Virus record (IMG/VR): IMGVR_UViG_3300025679_000012
Coordinates: 1 to 43,514 of that record
Origin: a virus
DNA length: 43,514 nucleotides
Strand: one strand, 5' to 3'
Both the position numbers and the translations under genes were made by a program. The notes under the pieces are model-generated. The model made no database searches. It was given only the letters and a program-made list of their open reading frames with translations, and had not been told where the DNA came from. This document shows positions 7,068 through 43,272 of the stretch, in pieces (within the stretch, counting starts at the first letter, position 1; each line of letters opens with the position of its first letter).

Positions 7068-8966
7068 ATGGCATTCATCGCACTTAGATCACACGCAATA
7101 AAAAACCCGGGCAACACCCGGAATATTACGACGACCCAAACCGAGAACGGTGTCGCTCGCGTGCAGAAGACGACCTCTCAGACAGAGACTGGTGTAGGTC
7201 GCATCCAGATCACCACAGCGCGTACGGAGACAGGAGTCTCACGAATCCAAGTAACGACCTCAAAGACCACCACGGGCATAGCCAGAATCACGGCCACAAC
7301 AGCCCAGACTGCCACAGGTAAGGCGAGGATCACCGCAACCACTCCAAGGACCGAAACCGGCGTGGGGCGCGTCACAGCGACAACCAGCCGCACTGAGACC
7401 GGCGTTTCCCGTGTAACAGCCACCACATCGAGGACTGAGACTGGTGTGGCACGTATTACAGCCACGACGTCCAAGACGGAGACGGGTGTATCTCGAATCA
7501 CTGTCACTACCCTGAAGACCGAAACCGGCCTCTCGAGAGTGACCGCGACGACCTCACGAACCGAGACTGGACTCGCCCGGATAACCGCTACCACGACGCG
7601 CACAGAAACTGGTAAAGCCGCGATCCTCCGCACCACAAATCAGACCGAAAGTGGTATAGCTCGCGTGCAGGTGAGCACCGCGCGCACTGAGACCGGCGTA
7701 GCACGCATTCAAATCACCAGCACCAAGACGGAGACTGGTATCGCTCGAGTGACTGCAGTGACAGCAAAAACAGAAACAGGCCTCGCTCGCATTCAGATCC
7801 AGACCACGAAGACCGAGAGTGGTGTGGCGCGCATTACCGCATCAACCCTGAAGACAGAAACGGGTGTCGGCCGTGTGACTGCAACCACCCTGAAGACCGA
7901 GACCGGCGTATCGAGAATCACTGCAAAAACGACCAAGACAGAGTCGGGTGTTTCCCGTGTAACGGTATCGACCTCGAGGACCGAGAGTGGTGTGGCAAAC
8001 ATCGCCTCGTCAACCACCACAACAACGAAGACCGAGACAGGTGTCGCAAATATCAAGGTGACTACCCAGCGCACTGAGACCGGCGTAGCACGCGTGCAAG
8101 TAACGACACAGAAAACGGAGACGGGTATAGCGAGAGTGCAACTCACAACTTCAAAGACCGAGACTGGTGTCGGACGTATCACCGTCTCCACTTCGAAGAC
8201 TGAAACGGGCGTAGCGCGAATCACTAAAGTAACAGCAAAGACCGAGACCGGAGTAGCGCGAATCACCGTGACTACGACAAAGAGCGAGACCGGCCTCGCC
8301 CGCATAACCACGATCGACTCAAAGACCGAGACCGGCAAAGCTGCAATCCTCAAGACATCCTCTCAGACCGAAAGTGGTGTCGGCCGCATCACTACGACGA
8401 CCGCACGAACCGAGACCGGCAAAGCCTCCATCCTGCGCACGACGACTCAAACGAAGACGGGTGTGGCACGCTTGCAGGTTCAAACCAGTAAGACAGAGAC
8501 CGGAGTAGCTCGCATCACCAAAGCAGTGGCACGCACAGAGACAGGCACCTCACGAATTACCGCCCAGACCGCCCAGACCGCCCAGACCGCCACAGGTAAG
8601 GCGAGAGTGACCATTACCACCTCCCGGGCCATTCAGGGCACCTCACGCCTCCTGAAGACCTCATCGGCCACTGAGATGGGCAAAGCACGCCTCCAATACA
8701 CCACCAGTCGCACCGAGACGGGCAAAGCGACCGTTTCCGCCATTACGACCCAGAATATCACCGGGACCGCGTCGATCGTGGCACAGGTAAAGCAAGGCAA
8801 AGGCAGGCACGTCCTCACGACGCACCAGCGAGCACAGATACTTCCAACGAAGACCATACAAACCGACACCATCACCACAGGCAGTAGAGCGCAGACGACA
8901 GTCGAAACAGGAACCAAAATATTATCCACCCTCACCACGCGCACACCCGAGCGCACGGTGCTATAA
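7068..8966 (+). CDS. 14-residue repeat protein, probable fibre
   Basis: 632 residues of which about 545 consist of some 39 tandem repeats with consensus TTxxTETGVARITA (14 residues, 42 bp). Invariant positions are T-x-T-G and an R/K-I/V pair; two units carry 3-residue insertions. Alternation of Val/Ile with Thr suggests a stacked beta structure such as a solenoid or fibrous stalk; YadA-type heads also use 14-residue turns, but the consensus differs. There is no cysteine and no hydrophobic core segment. Codons differ from repeat to repeat although the protein motif is kept, so the repeats are old and selected at protein level. A perfect 9-bp triple repeat at 8561-8587 marks recent slippage. 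The last ~75 residues are not repetitive. Function as a tail or head fibre is inferred. Confidence 0.65.
   Translation: MAFIALRSHAIKNPGNTRNITTTQTENGVARVQKTTSQTETGVGRIQITTARTETGVSRIQVTTSKTTTGIARITATTAQTATGKARITATTPRTETGVGRVTATTSRTETGVSRVTATTSRTETGVARITATTSKTETGVSRITVTTLKTETGLSRVTATTSRTETGLARITATTTRTETGKAAILRTTNQTESGIARVQVSTARTETGVARIQITSTKTETGIARVTAVTAKTETGLARIQIQTTKTESGVARITASTLKTETGVGRVTATTLKTETGVSRITAKTTKTESGVSRVTVSTSRTESGVANIASSTTTTTKTETGVANIKVTTQRTETGVARVQVTTQKTETGIARVQLTTSKTETGVGRITVSTSKTETGVARITKVTAKTETGVARITVTTTKSETGLARITTIDSKTETGKAAILKTSSQTESGVGRITTTTARTETGKASILRTTTQTKTGVARLQVQTSKTETGVARITKAVARTETGTSRITAQTAQTAQTATGKARVTITTSRAIQGTSRLLKTSSATEMGKARLQYTTSRTETGKATVSAITTQNITGTASIVAQVKQGKGRHVLTTHQRAQILPTKTIQTDTITTGSRAQTTVETGTKILSTLTTRTPERTVL
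7140..8780 (+). repeat. Array of about 39 degenerate 42-bp coding repeats
   Basis: Period of 42 bp carrying the consensus ACNGAGACNGGNGTNGC inside each unit. The repeats diverge at third positions, unlike a recent tandem expansion. At 8561-8587 the 9-mer CGCCCAGAC occurs three times in a row, a likely recent slippage product adding three residues per copy (QTA). Confidence 0.85.
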
Positions 8967-24622: not shown

Positions 24623-26734
24623 ATGCAAAACGAGACACAAAGAATGGCACAGATGCCCGTCGAAAAGATGAGCTACTCGGGACTCACGCAACTACTGCGC
24701 AACCCGATTATTTATAAACTGAAGTACATCCTCGGGGTGTACGATCGCCCAACCGGCGTATCCGGCATGGTCGGCCGAGCCGGACATGAGGCACTCAAGG
24801 TCTACTACGGCGGCAACAAAGACGTTGCCACCCCGGCCGATCCACAGGCAGCACAGGAGATAGCGATTGACTACGGCCTCCAATACCTCGTCGACTACCC
24901 AGACGCCAACATCGACTTCGGTAAGACCGGATCCCGCGAGGGCATGCTGAAGACATACGCACAGGCGATGCGCTTCTACTTCGCAGAGGAGCCCGTGTAC
25001 AACGAGATACTCATGTGCGAGGAGAAGATGGAGGCAACAATCCACACAATCGACGGCGATGAGATGCCACTGCCAGCAGTCGGAGTCCCGGACATTGTGC
25101 ACAAGCGCAAGGACGGAGGCATTGAGATAGTCGACGTTAAATTCGTGAAATCATTCACCGAGTACGACGAGGAGGACTACATCAAGATCGTGCAAAGCCA
25201 ATTCCTCTGGCACCTCCTGAAGGCGACCAAAGGAATCAGTGCAGACCGGATGCTCTTCAGAGAGGTGAAGGTAACCGAGAACGCCAAAGAGAATGCAGGC
25301 AAGCCGCAGATCCGCGACTACGCCGTACCATTCAGCCACGAGCAATACCGAATCATTTTCTATAACCTCTACCGCGACGTGGTGCGCTTCCTCTCAAATC
25401 CCGATGCCATCTTCCTCCCTAACCTTTCCGACCCATTCGATGGAGAGCAAGCAGGCCTCCTGTACGCGCAGGGCCTCCTCTCCGGCGACATGAGCGACGT
25501 CGAGGTGATGCACAAGGTCAAGGACATCGCATACACCAGCAAGAAGTTTGTCCCGAGCCGACTCGATAGCGACGTCAACAAACACCTCCGCCCTGAAGAT
25601 AAGATTAAGCTGCGCCTCGCAGAGTTCGGCATCCCCGTCGAGCCCGAGGAGACCAAGGTAGGCACCAGCGTCACGCAGTACCGCTTCAAGGTGAGCGCCG
25701 GAACTACGATGTCACGCTTCACAAAGCACAAGGCCGACATCGCACGCGCAATCGAAGCGAAGGGCGAGATACGCATACTCGCACCGATCCCGGGCACTTC
25801 GCTGGTGGGAGTCGAAGTAGCAAACGAATCACGCACCACCGCACTCTTGAGCAAAGCGGAGATAATCAAAGACACGCTCTCGCTTCCAATCGGCATCGAC
25901 GTGCAGGGGGCACCGCACTTGGCACCCCTCGATGAGATGCCGCACCTCTTGGTAGCCGGCACAACCGGGTCCGGCAAGAGTGTGACGGTCCGCACCTTCC
26001 TGAAGGCGCTAACCAAACAGCTCACACCGACCCATCTGCACCTGATACTCATTGACCCGAAGCGCGTCGAGCTCGCAGAGTGGAAGGGCGACAAGCACCT
26101 CCACGGCGGAAAGATTGCCTACGAGTACGCCGACGCACTCCTGATACTCAAGGGACTCACCGACGAGATGGAGAATCGCTACAAGCTACTCGAGAAGGCA
26201 AAAGTGCGAAACATAAAAGAGTACAACGACCGCGAACGAATGACGGCACCAGAGGGGTCACGACAAACACTCCAGTACATCGTCACAGTCGTCGACGAGT
26301 TCGCAGACCTCATCCTGCAGGGCAAAATAGCCTCACGCAGAGAGAAGAAGCGCGAGAGCCTGCAGACGATCGTGACCCGCGAGAAGGTCACGCAGATGGC
26401 GAAGCAGTTCGCAAAGATGGGCATGGCCTACACGGCACCAGACCCTGAAGTCGAGATGCCAACGGTCGAGGAGATGATTGTACGCCTCGCACAGATGGCA
26501 CGCGCGGTCGGCATCCACCTCATCATCGCCACACAGCGCCCGAGCGTCGATGTAATCACCGGCCTCATCAAGGCCAACTTCCCCACTCGCATCGCGCTGA
26601 CAACGGCGAGCGCGACCGACAGTAAGGTCATCCTCGGGGTCGAAGGTGCAGAGAAACTCACCGGCAAGGGGGATATGCTTTTTATGAGTCCCGGAGCTGG
26701 CATTACTAGACTTCAAGGCTTCATCGCTGAATAA
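24623..26734 (+). CDS. PD-(D/E)XK nuclease fused to FtsK-type DNA translocase
   Basis: 703 residues. Residues 1-280 form a RecB/Cas4-like nuclease: H55 in GRAGHEALK, D157 in GVPDIVH, D171-x-K173 in VDVKF and Q191 in VQSQFLW. Residues ~330-430 (VTQYRFKVSAGTTMSRFTKH, then EIRILAPIPGTSLVGVEVAN) are the FtsK beta region. The motor follows: Walker A GTTGSGKS (446-453), LILIDPKRVEL, Walker B VVDEFADL (D558, E559), IIATQRPSVDVITGLIKA. The usual C-terminal gamma (KOPS-reading) domain is absent; it ends RLQGFIAE. So a DNA motor is joined to a nuclease that could feed single strands to RecT. Order and domains are clear; the action is inferred. Confidence 0.85.
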   Translation: MQNETQRMAQMPVEKMSYSGLTQLLRNPIIYKLKYILGVYDRPTGVSGMVGRAGHEALKVYYGGNKDVATPADPQAAQEIAIDYGLQYLVDYPDANIDFGKTGSREGMLKTYAQAMRFYFAEEPVYNEILMCEEKMEATIHTIDGDEMPLPAVGVPDIVHKRKDGGIEIVDVKFVKSFTEYDEEDYIKIVQSQFLWHLLKATKGISADRMLFREVKVTENAKENAGKPQIRDYAVPFSHEQYRIIFYNLYRDVVRFLSNPDAIFLPNLSDPFDGEQAGLLYAQGLLSGDMSDVEVMHKVKDIAYTSKKFVPSRLDSDVNKHLRPEDKIKLRLAEFGIPVEPEETKVGTSVTQYRFKVSAGTTMSRFTKHKADIARAIEAKGEIRILAPIPGTSLVGVEVANESRTTALLSKAEIIKDTLSLPIGIDVQGAPHLAPLDEMPHLLVAGTTGSGKSVTVRTFLKALTKQLTPTHLHLILIDPKRVELAEWKGDKHLHGGKIAYEYADALLILKGLTDEMENRYKLLEKAKVRNIKEYNDRERMTAPEGSRQTLQYIVTVVDEFADLILQGKIASRREKKRESLQTIVTREKVTQMAKQFAKMGMAYTAPDPEVEMPTVEEMIVRLAQMARAVGIHLIIATQRPSVDVITGLIKANFPTRIALTTASATDSKVILGVEGAEKLTGKGDMLFMSPGAGITRLQGFIAE

Positions 26735-38484: not shown

Positions 38485-40956
38485 ATGGACATATCACTCA
38501 AGTTTTCAACAGGGAAGAAAACGGCAACCGAGCCGAGTCCAGTCAGTGCGCAGGTGAGCATCCAAAAGGACCTACAGAAAACAGACGACAGCCGACCACT
38601 GGCGGCATCATTCCCGAGAGCTGAGCTCGGCGACTCCGGTACACGATTGCTCCACGGCATCATCACCGAGGAATACAATCCGCAACTGCAGGGCATCCAA
38701 GGCATCCGCGTCTTCGAGGAGATGCGCAAGTCCGACGGTACTGTGCGCGCAGCGATGATGGTCTGCACACTCCCAATCCGCCGGGCCGACTGGTACGTGA
38801 AGCCTGCAAGCGATAGCACCCAAGACGAGGAGATCGCGAACTTCGTGCGCCATGCGCTCTTCGATTGGGTAGAAGACATGACGTGGGACGACATCCTCCG
38901 CCAAGCACTCCTCATGACCGCATTCGGTGTGATGCTCTTCGAGAAGGTATACGGCACCATGGACCACGAGGGCAAGACATACGTCACACTCTCGAAGCTC
39001 GCACCGCGCCTCCCAAAGAGTATCCTGCAGTGGGAGTTGGTAGACCACACCTTCGGCATCCAACAGATCCGACAGGATGGACAGCTCGCCCAGATCCCCG
39101 GCTCCAAACTTTTGATATTCGTCAACGAGCGAGAAGGGGATAACTGGTGGGGCACATCCATGCTCCGAGCCGCATACCAGCACTGGTACCGCAAGAGCAA
39201 GTACTACGCGATAGACAGCCTCGCATTCGAGCGCCAAGGACTCGGCGTGCCAACGCTCACGATGCCAGTGGGATACACCGAGAACGATGAGAAGCGAGCC
39301 AAGACCACACTGCAAAACCTCCGCGCAAACGAGAAGGCATACATGGTGCTTCCACCCGGCTACACATTCGAGTTTGCCAACATGGGCGCACGCACAACAC
39401 GCGACCCTACAGTAGCCATCGAGCACCACAACAAGGAAATCTTGCAGAGCGTGCTCGCACAGTTTCTCGAGCTCGGCGCATCGAGAGCCGGAAGCGGAAG
39501 CCGTGCGCTTTCAACCGACCACTCCGACCTCTTCCTCAAAGCGATGGAGGCGATAGCAAACACCGTCCGCGACGTTTTCAACAAGCAACTCGTCAAAGAG
39601 ATTGTCGACCTGAACTTCAACGACGTGAAGGCATACCCTGTGCTTGATTACTCCGGCATCAGCAAGGTAGATATAGCTGCACTCGGCACTGCAATCGCAC
39701 AGCTCACCACATCCGGATTCTTGAGTCCGACCGACGACGACCAGCAGTGGGTCCGCGCATCGATGGGCCTGCCAGCACGCACACAGGAGCAGATCGAGGA
39801 GGCCAACCAAGACGACCCGAGCGTCCAAGAACTCGAGCAAGGCGACCAAGACATCGAGGAGACACCGGAGAGCGATACGACCGCAACGGATCCGACAGAC
39901 GTCGAGGATGCAACAACAACCGCTGCGCAAAACAAGAAGGATAAGACCGGCAAAGGCGACACGAAACCGGCACCGAAGCCTGCTGCTAAACCTGCACCCA
40001 AGAAGCCTGCACCGAAGCCAGCGGCCGCACACGAGCACAAGAAGCCAGTGCGACGCTTCAGCGATGCAAACGGATTCACGAGCTGGAGACCGCAGACCTT
40101 CGCTGAAGGGAAAGTGAACTGGAACCTTATACAGACCGACCTCGACAAAATGCAGTCGGACTTCACGACCGATGCAAACGCGCTCCTCAACGACTCCAAG
40201 GACTCATTCATGGCAAAGCTCCACCAAGCGCTCAAGGACAACGACTACAAAACCATCGCCACGCTCGAGCTGGGCTTTTTGATTGCATACAAGTCACTGA
40301 TTAAAAAGGCGATGCAAGATGCATACGTGCACGGCAAGACCGACGTCGCGCACGAGATAGGCATCGACACGCCAGCCAACACGGCCGACACACTCAAGAA
40401 CATCGACCTCATCGCACAGACCGTCGCACAGAAAACAGCAGCCGCACTTGAGGCACAGGTGAAGCTCGGGGTATCCACCGCACTCAAAAGCGACGTACCC
40501 GCACTGCAGGTATCCGGGCAACTTGACGCTGACCTTGAGCAGGCGATCGCCAAGACGGTAGACGACGCGGCAAGCACACTCATCTCGCAAGCCATGAACA
40601 TGGGACGCAACGATGTCTTTGACCGCAACAGCGACGAGATTTATGCCCTCCAGCGCAGTGAACTGCTCGACAGCAAGACCTGCAACTTCTGCCTGAGCAT
40701 GGATAGTCGCGTTGTCGAGAAGGGAGACGAGTGGACCGACACCGACATATTCCACAGCAACTGCAGAGGCATCTGGGTAGCAATCCTCAAGGACGAAGTG
40801 AACCCACCACCAATCGACGGCGTGCCTTCAAACGTCGGAGATTACTACGGTGGCAACGTCAACTCGCTCGTGCAACCGAAGGTGCCAATCACAAAGCCGG
40901 GCTCGCTCGCGGAGCAATTCGTCAAAGACCAAGCAGCCAAGGCAGCCAAGAAATAA
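38485..40956 (+). CDS. Portal protein fused to MuF-type head morphogenesis domain
   Basis: 823 residues. Residues 1-440 are a portal of the DUF935/Mu gp29 type (YNPQLQGIQGIRVFEEMRKS, VKPASDSTQDEEIANFVRHA, LSTDHSDLFLKAMEAIANTV). A Pro/Ala/Lys-rich linker follows (about 485-520, KPAPKPAAKPAPKKPAPK). The C-terminal part is MuF-like, with LQRSELLDSKTCNFCLSMDS and HSNCRGIWVAI (Cys-x2-Cys ... Cys). In Mu these are separate genes; here they are one protein. Portals form the DNA gate, MuF proteins help assembly and may enter the host. The linker likely permits flexible positioning. Confidence 0.82.
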   Translation: MDISLKFSTGKKTATEPSPVSAQVSIQKDLQKTDDSRPLAASFPRAELGDSGTRLLHGIITEEYNPQLQGIQGIRVFEEMRKSDGTVRAAMMVCTLPIRRADWYVKPASDSTQDEEIANFVRHALFDWVEDMTWDDILRQALLMTAFGVMLFEKVYGTMDHEGKTYVTLSKLAPRLPKSILQWELVDHTFGIQQIRQDGQLAQIPGSKLLIFVNEREGDNWWGTSMLRAAYQHWYRKSKYYAIDSLAFERQGLGVPTLTMPVGYTENDEKRAKTTLQNLRANEKAYMVLPPGYTFEFANMGARTTRDPTVAIEHHNKEILQSVLAQFLELGASRAGSGSRALSTDHSDLFLKAMEAIANTVRDVFNKQLVKEIVDLNFNDVKAYPVLDYSGISKVDIAALGTAIAQLTTSGFLSPTDDDQQWVRASMGLPARTQEQIEEANQDDPSVQELEQGDQDIEETPESDTTATDPTDVEDATTTAAQNKKDKTGKGDTKPAPKPAAKPAPKKPAPKPAAAHEHKKPVRRFSDANGFTSWRPQTFAEGKVNWNLIQTDLDKMQSDFTTDANALLNDSKDSFMAKLHQALKDNDYKTIATLELGFLIAYKSLIKKAMQDAYVHGKTDVAHEIGIDTPANTADTLKNIDLIAQTVAQKTAAALEAQVKLGVSTALKSDVPALQVSGQLDADLEQAIAKTVDDAASTLISQAMNMGRNDVFDRNSDEIYALQRSELLDSKTCNFCLSMDSRVVEKGDEWTDTDIFHSNCRGIWVAILKDEVNPPPIDGVPSNVGDYYGGNVNSLVQPKVPITKPGSLAEQFVKDQAAKAAKK

Positions 40957-40957
40957 C

Positions 40958-41299
40958 ATGGCACGCGCACGCAGAGCCACAGACGGCAACGGCACCGTAT
41001 ACATAGCCATCGAATGCAAGGGGTGTGACGAACGCCACACCGTCGTCGTAGCGCGTGGCATCGGAGACATCGGTCCCGTGTGGGGATTCAATGGCTCGCT
41101 CGAGCTACCAACATTCACACCATCACTACGAGTCACTTGGCCGGCGAACCCTAACGCGATAGCAGGCTTTGAGGAGTGGCGCACCGAGAGATGTTGTCAC
41201 TCGTTCGTCGCCGACGGCAGAATCCAGTACCTCGGAGACTGTACGCACTCACTGGCCGGACAGACCATAGACCTACCGGAGATATCGGGTGTAGAATAA
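40958..41299 (+). CDS. DUF6527 family protein
   Basis: 113 residues from ATG 40958. Matches the DUF6527 pattern: WGFNGSLELPTFTPSL, then CHSFVADGRIQYLGDCTHSL and AGQTIDLP. The family is small, found in phages and plasmids, with conserved Cys/His (CKGCDERH, CCHSF, DCTH) that may bind metal. Function not known. Last gene before the RNA locus. Confidence 0.65.
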   Translation: MARARRATDGNGTVYIAIECKGCDERHTVVVARGIGDIGPVWGFNGSLELPTFTPSLRVTWPANPNAIAGFEEWRTERCCHSFVADGRIQYLGDCTHSLAGQTIDLPEISGVE

Positions 41300-41384
41300 A
41301 GACGGGGGAGCAATGCAACCGAGGTCCAAGGCTTAGCCACATGGACACACACATCAACCGCATCACTCCCCCACCAGCTCTTTC

Positions 41385-41423
41385 AAAGGAGGTGATCACA
41401 TATCTCTGGCGAGTCCCAGCCGC
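41385..41423 (+). promoter_or_regulatory. Bipartite anti-16S tail (extended Shine-Dalgarno)
   Basis: A 13-nt AAAGGAGGTGATC lies at 41385-41397 and an 8-nt CCAGCCGC at 41416-41423, with a 19-nt gap (after the shared 12 nt) containing CTC-TGGC-GAG. It would pair to the anti-Shine-Dalgarno and h45 region of 16S rRNA. The nearest start-like codon is ATA at 41400 with a 9-codon frame ending TAA at 41427. Confidence 0.55.
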
Positions 41424-41431
41424 CAGTAACT

Positions 41432-41463
41432 AACACCCCGCCGTTGACGGGGTGTTCTTTTTT
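41432..41463 (+). terminator. Intrinsic terminator with promoter -35 in its hairpin
   Basis: AACACCCCG (41432-41440), loop CCGTTGA, CGGGGTGTT (41448-41456), then a T run (41458-41463). A TTGACG in the loop/3' arm is the -35 of the next promoter. Confidence 0.85.
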
Positions 41464-41471
41464 GAGATAAT
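41444..41471 (+). promoter_or_regulatory. Promoter of the tmRNA gene
   Basis: TTGACG (41444-41449), 16-nt spacer, GATAAT (41466-41471). The transcript would begin near 41478, leaving a ~40 nt leader before the mature tmRNA end. Confidence 0.55.
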
Positions 41472-41517: not shown

Positions 41518-41875
41518 GGGCTCGAATTAGATTCGACTCCGGCGTTCTTTGAAAAGTTGCGATGCAAGCGCACCCGATCGCTTCTCTCGGGTAAAACTCA
41601 AAAGCAAAATCTATTGCTTCTCCGTACTTCTCGAACGCTGGCAGTCTTCGGACTCCTGCATTCGCCTAGCGACGGCGTCGACCATATTGCGGACGTGCGC
41701 AAAATGGCCCGGCGTAAACAATCACGTATGGTGGAGGTAACATGAACCCAGTCCAATGGGCAATGCCCCGGGGTCCGCGTATGCGGGCCGACGAGCTCAA
41801 GCGCTACTTGAGACAGGCATCGTAGACGCTTTTCAATGACACTGAAGGACCCGGGTGCAAATCCCGGCGAGTCCA
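41518..41875 (+). ncRNA. ssrA: tmRNA (ssrA), phage-encoded
   Basis: The 5' end GGGCTCG (41518-41524) pairs with CGAGTCC (41868-41874), discriminator A at 41875, and the conserved GATTCGAC follows the acceptor arm. T arm CCGGG-TGCAAAT-CCCGG (41851-41867 region). An H-type pseudoknot (AAGCG/CGCTT with ACCCGA/TCGGGT, 41566-41592) precedes a tag frame from GCA 41604 to TAG 41667-41669: AKSIASPYFSNAGSLRTPAF and a last A, ending -AFA like some bacterial tags. A second pseudoknot (CTCAAG/CTTGAG, CGCTA/TAGaCG) lies at 41796-41828. Length 358 nt is normal. CCA is not encoded; the T loop has G in place of U55. tmRNA rescues stalled ribosomes with host SmpB. Confidence 0.85.
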
Positions 41876-41882
41876 CACGATC

Positions 41883-42030: not shown

Positions 42031-43272
42031 ATGAAGACACTCACCACTGAACAAGCTCGCGTGAGAGCGAGCGGTAAATACATCGGCATCTTCCCCTTCG
42101 AGTTCGACGATGGGGGTGGTGGCACAGGTAGCGTGACGATACCGCGCACGATTCACCTGATACCGATTGGGACGTGGGATCATGACCTCTACGGTCCAAT
42201 AATTATTACGCCTGCTGACATCCGGCAATTCGCGTCCAACTTTAATGCAGGTATCCGCAAGGGTATCTTCATCACAGCCGGGCACGAGGGCTATGCCGAG
42301 CTGCCTGCGCAGGGGTGGATAACTTCGGTAGAAGCGCGTGACGACGGTCTGTGGGGCGTGGTAGACTGGAACCAGCTAGGAGTAGAGACTTTGAGCGACA
42401 AGCAATACAAGTTTTTCTCTCCTGAGTTCTTCCTCGAATACGCCGACCCAGAGACGCATGAAGTTACGAAGAACGTTCTCACCGGCGGCGCACTCACAAA
42501 GAGCCCTTACTTCAAGGAACTCGAGGCCGTGGTCTTCTCGGATAGAAACATTACAAAGAAAATTAATACTAACGAAAACATTATGGATATTGCAGAAATT
42601 CTCAAGCTCGACAAGGCCACTCTGACCGACGAGCAAAAGGCTTTTATTAAGACCAACGCCGACAAGCTCACTGACGAGCAGAAGGTGGAGTACAAAGACG
42701 TCGTAGGCGAGGCGGATGCCCCTGCAGAGACGGACGAGGAAAAGACCGCACGCGAGGAAAAGGAGAAGGGCGATGCCAACGAGGCAGCCGGACTCAACCG
42801 CGACGGCTCAGCCAAGACTGCAATCGACGCATCCGAAAAGGTGCAGATCAGTGCAGGCGAACTCGCAGCACTCACCAAGGCAGCGAACGAGGGCAAGTCT
42901 GCATTCGCAGAGCTCCGCACGAGCAAGATCACTGCGTCTGTCAAAAGCCTCGTCTTCAATTCAAAAACCAACAGTGTCGGACGGTTCCTCCCGAAGAGTG
43001 AAGCAGCCCTTCAGTCTTTCATGGAGAAGCTCGATGACGGACAACGCGCTGCGTTTGCAACGTTGGTAGCAGAACTGCCAAGTTCGCAGATTTTCGCCGA
43101 GAAGGGCGATGCTGGGACGATGACGGGTTCAGCTGAATCGGAGGTAGAAGCAAAGACCACGAAGCTCATGACTGAGAAGAAGATGTCGTACAGCGACGCT
43201 CTCAAGCAGACCTTCGCGGAGGATGCAGCACTGCACGAACGCTACGTCGCAGAGACGGGCACGCGCAATTAA
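42031..43272 (+). CDS. Prohead protease with nested scaffold (Mu gpI/gpZ-like)
   Basis: 413 residues. The first ~180 residues match the Mu-type head protease: IPIGTWDHDLYGPIIITPAD, FITAGHEGYAELPAQGWIT, FFSPEFFLEYADPETHEVT with SPEF near 130, GGALTKSPYFKELEAVV. The rest is a charged helical scaffold. An in-frame ATG at 42583 (Met185, MDIAEILKLDKATLT) is preceded by AACGAAAACATT, like other leaders here, so a separate scaffold of 229 residues may be made, as Mu makes gpZ inside gpI. Cleaves scaffold and capsid during head maturation. Confidence 0.82.
   Translation: MKTLTTEQARVRASGKYIGIFPFEFDDGGGGTGSVTIPRTIHLIPIGTWDHDLYGPIIITPADIRQFASNFNAGIRKGIFITAGHEGYAELPAQGWITSVEARDDGLWGVVDWNQLGVETLSDKQYKFFSPEFFLEYADPETHEVTKNVLTGGALTKSPYFKELEAVVFSDRNITKKINTNENIMDIAEILKLDKATLTDEQKAFIKTNADKLTDEQKVEYKDVVGEADAPAETDEEKTAREEKEKGDANEAAGLNRDGSAKTAIDASEKVQISAGELAALTKAANEGKSAFAELRTSKITASVKSLVFNSKTNSVGRFLPKSEAALQSFMEKLDDGQRAAFATLVAELPSSQIFAEKGDAGTMTGSAESEVEAKTTKLMTEKKMSYSDALKQTFAEDAALHERYVAETGTRN
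42583..43272 (+). CDS. Nested in-frame scaffold protein (alternative start)
   Basis: 229 residues beginning MDIAEILKLDKATLTDEQKA. Acidic helical scaffold-type protein (DEEKTAREEKEKGDANEAAG). Translation from this start would leave the protease domain out. The A-rich leader before the ATG is like leaders of separate genes. Expected from Mu gpI/gpZ, not proven. Confidence 0.55.
   Translation: MDIAEILKLDKATLTDEQKAFIKTNADKLTDEQKVEYKDVVGEADAPAETDEEKTAREEKEKGDANEAAGLNRDGSAKTAIDASEKVQISAGELAALTKAANEGKSAFAELRTSKITASVKSLVFNSKTNSVGRFLPKSEAALQSFMEKLDDGQRAAFATLVAELPSSQIFAEKGDAGTMTGSAESEVEAKTTKLMTEKKMSYSDALKQTFAEDAALHERYVAETGTRN

Follow-up and report, generated by a model that had tools for sequence, protein, structure and literature searches.

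A complete one-piece tmRNA gene in the genome of a tailed phage with probable Parcubacteria hosts

The virus record IMGVR_UViG_3300025679_000012, analysed here over its whole length of 43,514 bases (referred to as the window, whose coordinates are used throughout), carries a complete one-piece tmRNA at positions 41518-41875, in a gene located between those for a Mu-type portal protein and a Mu-like head maturation protease. tmRNAs release ribosomes that have become stuck and append a tag to the incomplete proteins. We consider it very probable that the gene, carried by a tailed phage whose hosts are probably ultra-small Parcubacteria, specifies a functional tmRNA, and that this RNA rescues ribosomes during infection in concert with host partners. 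The relevant features are the following.

38485-40956, + strand: Mu-type portal protein (PF06074, E 4.3e-51; phrog_113), upstream of the tmRNA gene
40958-41299, + strand: small DUF6527 gene between the portal and tmRNA genes
41432-41463, + strand: intrinsic terminator, a 9-bp stem (41432-41456) followed by a T tract, at the end of the portal/DUF6527 unit that lies upstream
41444-41471, + strand: promoter-like TTGACG-16-GATAAT with a TG before the -10 (extended -10), a consensus match at 10 of 12 positions, overlapping the terminator
41518-41875, + strand: tmRNA (ssrA) gene, RF00023 match, from G1 at the 5' end to the discriminator A73; CCA not encoded
41518-41524, + strand: 5' strand of the acceptor stem, GGGCTCG, 7/7 paired with CGAGTCC at 41868-41874, G3-U70 included
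41525-41537, + strand: D-loop AATTAGATTCGAC, with A18 at 41529 and G19 at 41530
41566-41592, + strand: pseudoknot 1 (PK1), AAGCG/CGCTT with ACCCGA/TCGGGT
41604-41669, + strand: tag frame AKSIASPYFSNAGSLRTPAFA and stop codon TAG; 21 codons, resume codon GCA at RNA nucleotide 87
41851-41867, + strand: T arm CCGGG-TGCAAAT-CCCGG, with G55 at 41857
42031-43272, + strand: Mu-like head maturation protease (PF10123, E 3e-17; phrog_328), downstream of the tmRNA gene

A targeted cmscan search with the Rfam model RF00023 gave 52.8 bits for positions 41518-41878 (gathering score 47), aligned over the full model (positions 1-374), with an E-value of 8.9e-20 in 901 bases and of 1.0e-21 in the whole record, where this is the sole match. 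The covariance search proposed in an earlier, sequence-only reading of this DNA was thus significant, and the encoded end at A73 coincides with the end which that reading had assigned to a tmRNA at 41518-41875. ARAGORN reported no tmRNA on the window, and Rfam with default filters and gathering threshold returned nothing for the whole window, the match emerging in the targeted scan by E-value; the odd T-loop and the missing CCA are probably behind both misses. The tmRNA sequence is repeated without any difference in a second contig of the same metagenome (L008), and the folding energy of the tmRNA by itself is modest (z -2.6). A 27-codon frame starting at about 41743 and preceded by GGAGG was rejected as a gene, since its counterpart in L011 reads GGTGGAGGTAACACG and lacks an ATG.

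The RNA possesses an alanine-type tRNA-like domain, consisting of a 7-bp acceptor stem with G3-U70, A73 and a T arm; the acceptor pairing recognized in the sequence-only reading therefore stands. G3-U70 and A73 are the signals by which alanyl-tRNA synthetase (AlaRS) charges its substrates with alanine, and they are invariant in all 145 tmRNAs that we compared (four from phages, 141 from Patescibacteria). The acceptor stems of the four phage tmRNAs differ in sequence, yet every one of them is paired at 7/7 positions. The 3' end of the gene reads ACAC in place of CCA, in agreement with the earlier reading; CCA is encoded by only 8 of 50 Patescibacteria tmRNAs with SPY/SPF tags, so that its absence is normal in the likely hosts. 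PK1 is a strong H-type pseudoknot, and 11 bases separate its end from the resume codon at 41604. The region of PK2-PK4 is present but weakly aligned by the RF00023 model, and a simple scan yielded weak candidates there; of the two H-type pseudoknots originally proposed, PK1 is upheld, while the second is one among several such candidates.

The tag of 21 residues ending in AFA, as first read from the sequence, has its frame confirmed by the phage relatives L009/L010, for which ARAGORN calls the tag AKATVSQFFPTVASLRTPAFA. Its last eight residues, SLRTPAFA, are identical to those of AKSIASPYFSNAGSLRTPAFA, although 9 of the 24 bases in the corresponding codons differ between the window and L010; all nine differences are silent. 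When random changes of equal size were simulated, all eight residues were kept in 1 of 200,000 cases. This pattern indicates that the tag frame is under selection and, because the differences are exclusively silent, argues that it is read by ribosomes; it is, in our view, the strongest evidence for tmRNA function. The phage tag shares the SPYF motif with tmRNAs of Parcubacteria relatives, and it ends in alanine as do 43 of 50 Patescibacteria host tags of the SPY/SPF type, so that the comparison with host ssrA suggested at the outset has revealed common traits. For the relative L003, we take the tag to be AVQSPYFASVKDVLAGRDLVLA, which begins at the GCA behind PK1, and not AGRDLVLA as reported by ARAGORN.

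A contact between G18 of the D-loop and U55 of the T-loop is typical of tmRNA, albeit not strictly defining. In tRNA, residue 18 touches pseudouridine 55 (PMC4810234). The typical contact is absent from the window tmRNA, which carries A18 and G55; the G at position 55 had been noticed in the sequence-only reading, and it now turns out to be one half of a paired change. Among the 145 tmRNAs, AG occupies positions 18-19 in 21 of the 24 that possess G55, versus one of the 121 others (L122); the association has a Fisher p of 4.7e-20, a value that was computed before L145 was reassigned and that ignores kinship. The A18/G55 combination is found in 20 other Patescibacteria tmRNAs, all of which score above the Rfam cut-off, and it consequently does not exclude membership in the tmRNA family. 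Carriers of G55, nearly always together with A18, include L084, L089, L090, L093, L094, L097, L099, L100, L102, L107 and L108. We regard A18-G55 as a candidate alternative elbow pair, and since G55 so consistently goes with A18, we interpret the G55 of the window as most likely a compensated variant, not as decay or a defect. On the best tmRNA tree, the fewest-changes history at positions 18 and 55 comprises eight joint switches, one joint reversal and eight single changes; the well-supported branches alone allow just two independent pairs. G55 occurs in none of the 50 sampled host tmRNAs with SPY/SPF tags, which suggests that the phage gained it separately or via recombination. One may tentatively envision, although we think it rather doubtful, that tmRNAs of Patescibacteria and their phages repeatedly switch from G18-U55 to A18-G55, a tertiary change involving two bases, and that the phage switch, made on an SPYF background, could make the phage RNA distinguishable to SmpB or to modification enzymes.

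The likely host belongs to the Parcubacteria (Patescibacteria), as indicated by the sole genome match to the portal, by the SPYF motif and by the lack of an encoded CCA. Among 84,980 species genomes, the portal protein matched a single entry, the metagenome-assembled genome (MAG) of Parcubacteria group bacterium 21-54-25, which contains a portal fragment of 86 residues with 79% identity; this short fragment on one MAG contig, together with the resemblance of tag and tmRNA, is what supports the host assignment. The bacterium possesses an ssrA of its own, which smpB immediately precedes. Its tmRNA (L035; tag AKKSLARAVSPYFGMNDFAFAAVTARA by our own reading) is a one-piece molecule like that of the window, and both possess G3-U70, A73, no encoded CCA, and a tag that starts with AK and contains SPYF. 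The two differ in that the bacterial gene adjoins smpB, whereas that of the phage does not, in the G18/U55 elbow of the bacterial RNA versus A18/G55, and in the bacterial tag, which is longer and has an FAFA core unlike that of the window. The best identity of the window tmRNA to a sampled host tmRNA is 54%, and in the tmRNA tree no well-supported group holds the phage genes, which have no firm placement. Several further observations were made on the bacterial contigs. On L034, a Parcubacteria MAG contig, a recombinase-like gene adjoins the portal fragment and, as judged by eye, a gene resembling that for a terminase small subunit, so that the region looks like a broken prophage of the window's phage family. 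Genome G204 has a second tmRNA (L199, 2106-2494), which neighbors genes for DNA methyltransferases on a contig of 11.5 kb; its predicted tag, AKEKPLYVEDLLELWGLDKELEESLV, is unlike the usual ones, and it perhaps represents another mobile element with ssrA. In G263, too, RF00023 matches over its full length at two places.

Portal searches of viral contigs yielded 28 related loci. A tmRNA is present in three of these relatives, in the gap between portal and protease genes in L009 and L003, whose portals are about 60% identical to that of the window, and elsewhere in the more distant L018. The tmRNA precedes DUF6527 in L009 but follows it in the window; in L004, L005, L006 and L007, the portal and protease genes are nearly adjacent and there is no tmRNA. 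Of the 13 records with a length of at least 37 kb, the window among them, four contain the gene according to our count, and because most relatives lack it, it is dispensable. The portal-protease gap is a variable cargo site in which the tmRNA is optional. In L003 (11175-11626), a tRNA-Met with a CAT anticodon abuts the tmRNA with zero gap, and a common transcript would therefore need to be cut between them; this tRNA could alternatively be a tRNA-Ile2 with a modified C34.

Positions 14-139 of the window recur at the end of the record (126 bases) and L008 spans the junction, so that the genome, of about 43.4 kb, is probably either circular or terminally redundant. A promoter of its own, immediately behind the terminator, probably drives transcription of the tmRNA. 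Equivalent terminators precede the tmRNA gene of L009 (10715-10737) and the tRNA-tmRNA unit of L003 (11130-11153), and promoter-like elements, TTTTTGATACAAT in L009 and TTTTTTGATACACT in L003, can be discerned behind them by eye, although a promoter scan flagged neither. Ahead of the window terminator, positions 41343-41433 contain a possible ORF of 30 codons and, within it, CAAAGGAGGTGATCAC, which has the look of a near-perfect anti-16S Shine-Dalgarno element, with no start codon at the usual distance. A search of the phage genome found no smpB, as the initial inspection had indicated, and a sequence search of the PDB returned nothing for DUF6527. Elsewhere in the window, one protein (24623-26734) combines a PD-(D/E)XK nuclease domain with an FtsK/SpoIIIE motor, an uncommon-looking fusion for a phage, and a protein of 632 amino acids (7068-8966) is built from dozens of copies of a unit of about 14 residues that resembles TETGVARI.

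In trans-translation, tmRNA is charged with alanine, delivered by SmpB to a stalled ribosome, and provides a new template by which translation switches to the tag frame, upon which the ribosome is released and the tagged protein is proteolyzed. We infer that the phage RNA, once transcribed from its own promoter and trimmed, would receive its CCA from the CCA-adding enzyme of the host, would be charged by the host AlaRS via G3-U70 and A73, and would enter, together with host SmpB, ribosomes stalled on broken mRNA. Translation would then switch to the GCA resume codon at 41604, AKSIASPYFSNAGSLRTPAFA would be added to the product, the ribosome would be released at the TAG, and host proteases would destroy the tagged product. 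In this manner, the phage tmRNA may supplement host ssrA when broken mRNA becomes more abundant under infection.

Other roles can be envisioned. The phage tmRNA might compete with that of the host such that the phage tag confers another fate on the tagged proteins, either sparing them from proteases or speeding them there. That the tag itself matters is suggested by SLRTPAFA, in which the DFAFA-type core often seen in related host tags is absent and which two phages preserve without any change. However, the other phage tags end differently (DLVLA and EPQYA), all four phage tags end in alanine as most host tags do, and PAFA endings are also found in the host tags of L060, L093, L108 and L121; we therefore view such a reprogramming of the tag as improbable. 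tmRNA genes are frequent phage integration sites, and the gene could consequently be a host ssrA that was captured by recombination, or the remnant of an attachment site, and now drifts without function. Its patchy presence among the relatives and its differing order relative to DUF6527 in the window and L009 would fit such a history, but the exclusively silent changes in the tag end and the compensated acceptor stems make a functionless passenger very unlikely. A remnant of an attachment site in particular is rejected on account of the full-length gene, which is not a 3' fragment, and of the result that no tyrosine integrase (PF00589) was found in the window or four relatives.

Hardly more credible is a decoy that titrates host SmpB and thereby blocks host trans-translation, as has been proposed for phage DS6A, whose tmRNA-like RNA is restricted to the tRNA-like domain (PMC4131195). 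The missing CCA and the altered elbow could be taken to mean that the window RNA is a poor substrate, but the absence of CCA is normal for the likely hosts and the elbow change is paired. Moreover, the AlaRS identity elements are intact, and the RNA is full-length, with a PK1 and a tag frame under selection, whereas a decoy would have no need of an mRNA-like part. Ribosome rescue with host partners is accordingly the reading that we favor.

The sequence-only reading had described phage tmRNAs as rare, a statement that can be refined to 402 phages among 18,146 genomes in one survey (PMC9004378). Earlier examples include those of the mycobacteriophages Bxz1, Wildcat and others and of Bacillus phage G (PMC4131195); like these phages and the 402-phage set, the window has a complete ssrA in a phage genome, and it differs from the known cases in its probable host phylum and may differ from them in the elbow variant. 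For the ssrA of methylophage Melnitz, maintenance of translation or tagging of host proteins has been proposed, as for the window, but the Melnitz tmRNA is permuted and two-piece and is accompanied by a glutamine riboswitch, whereas that of the window is one piece with a terminator and promoter in front (PMC9004378). The tmRNA of DS6A shares the phage location and is little more than a tRNA-like domain (PMC4131195), while the mRNA-like domain of the window is complete. In the literature searched (open-licence papers), we found neither a previous account of Patescibacteria phages with a tmRNA nor a description of the paired 18/55 change. Phage tmRNAs as such are already known; this one brings a host phylum that is probably new and an elbow variant, and the greater novelty may lie in the coupled switch of positions 18 and 55 among Patescibacteria tmRNAs.

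Standard annotation with ARAGORN and default Rfam filters overlooks tmRNA genes of this sort. Little is known about the biology of Patescibacteria phages, and the gene described here shows a complete trans-translation RNA in a phage that probably belongs to them; the conserved phage tags are candidate protease signals that can be tested. The paired change at positions 18 and 55 offers a direct test of whether the elbow pair regarded as universal in tRNA and tmRNA can be replaced by another that works.
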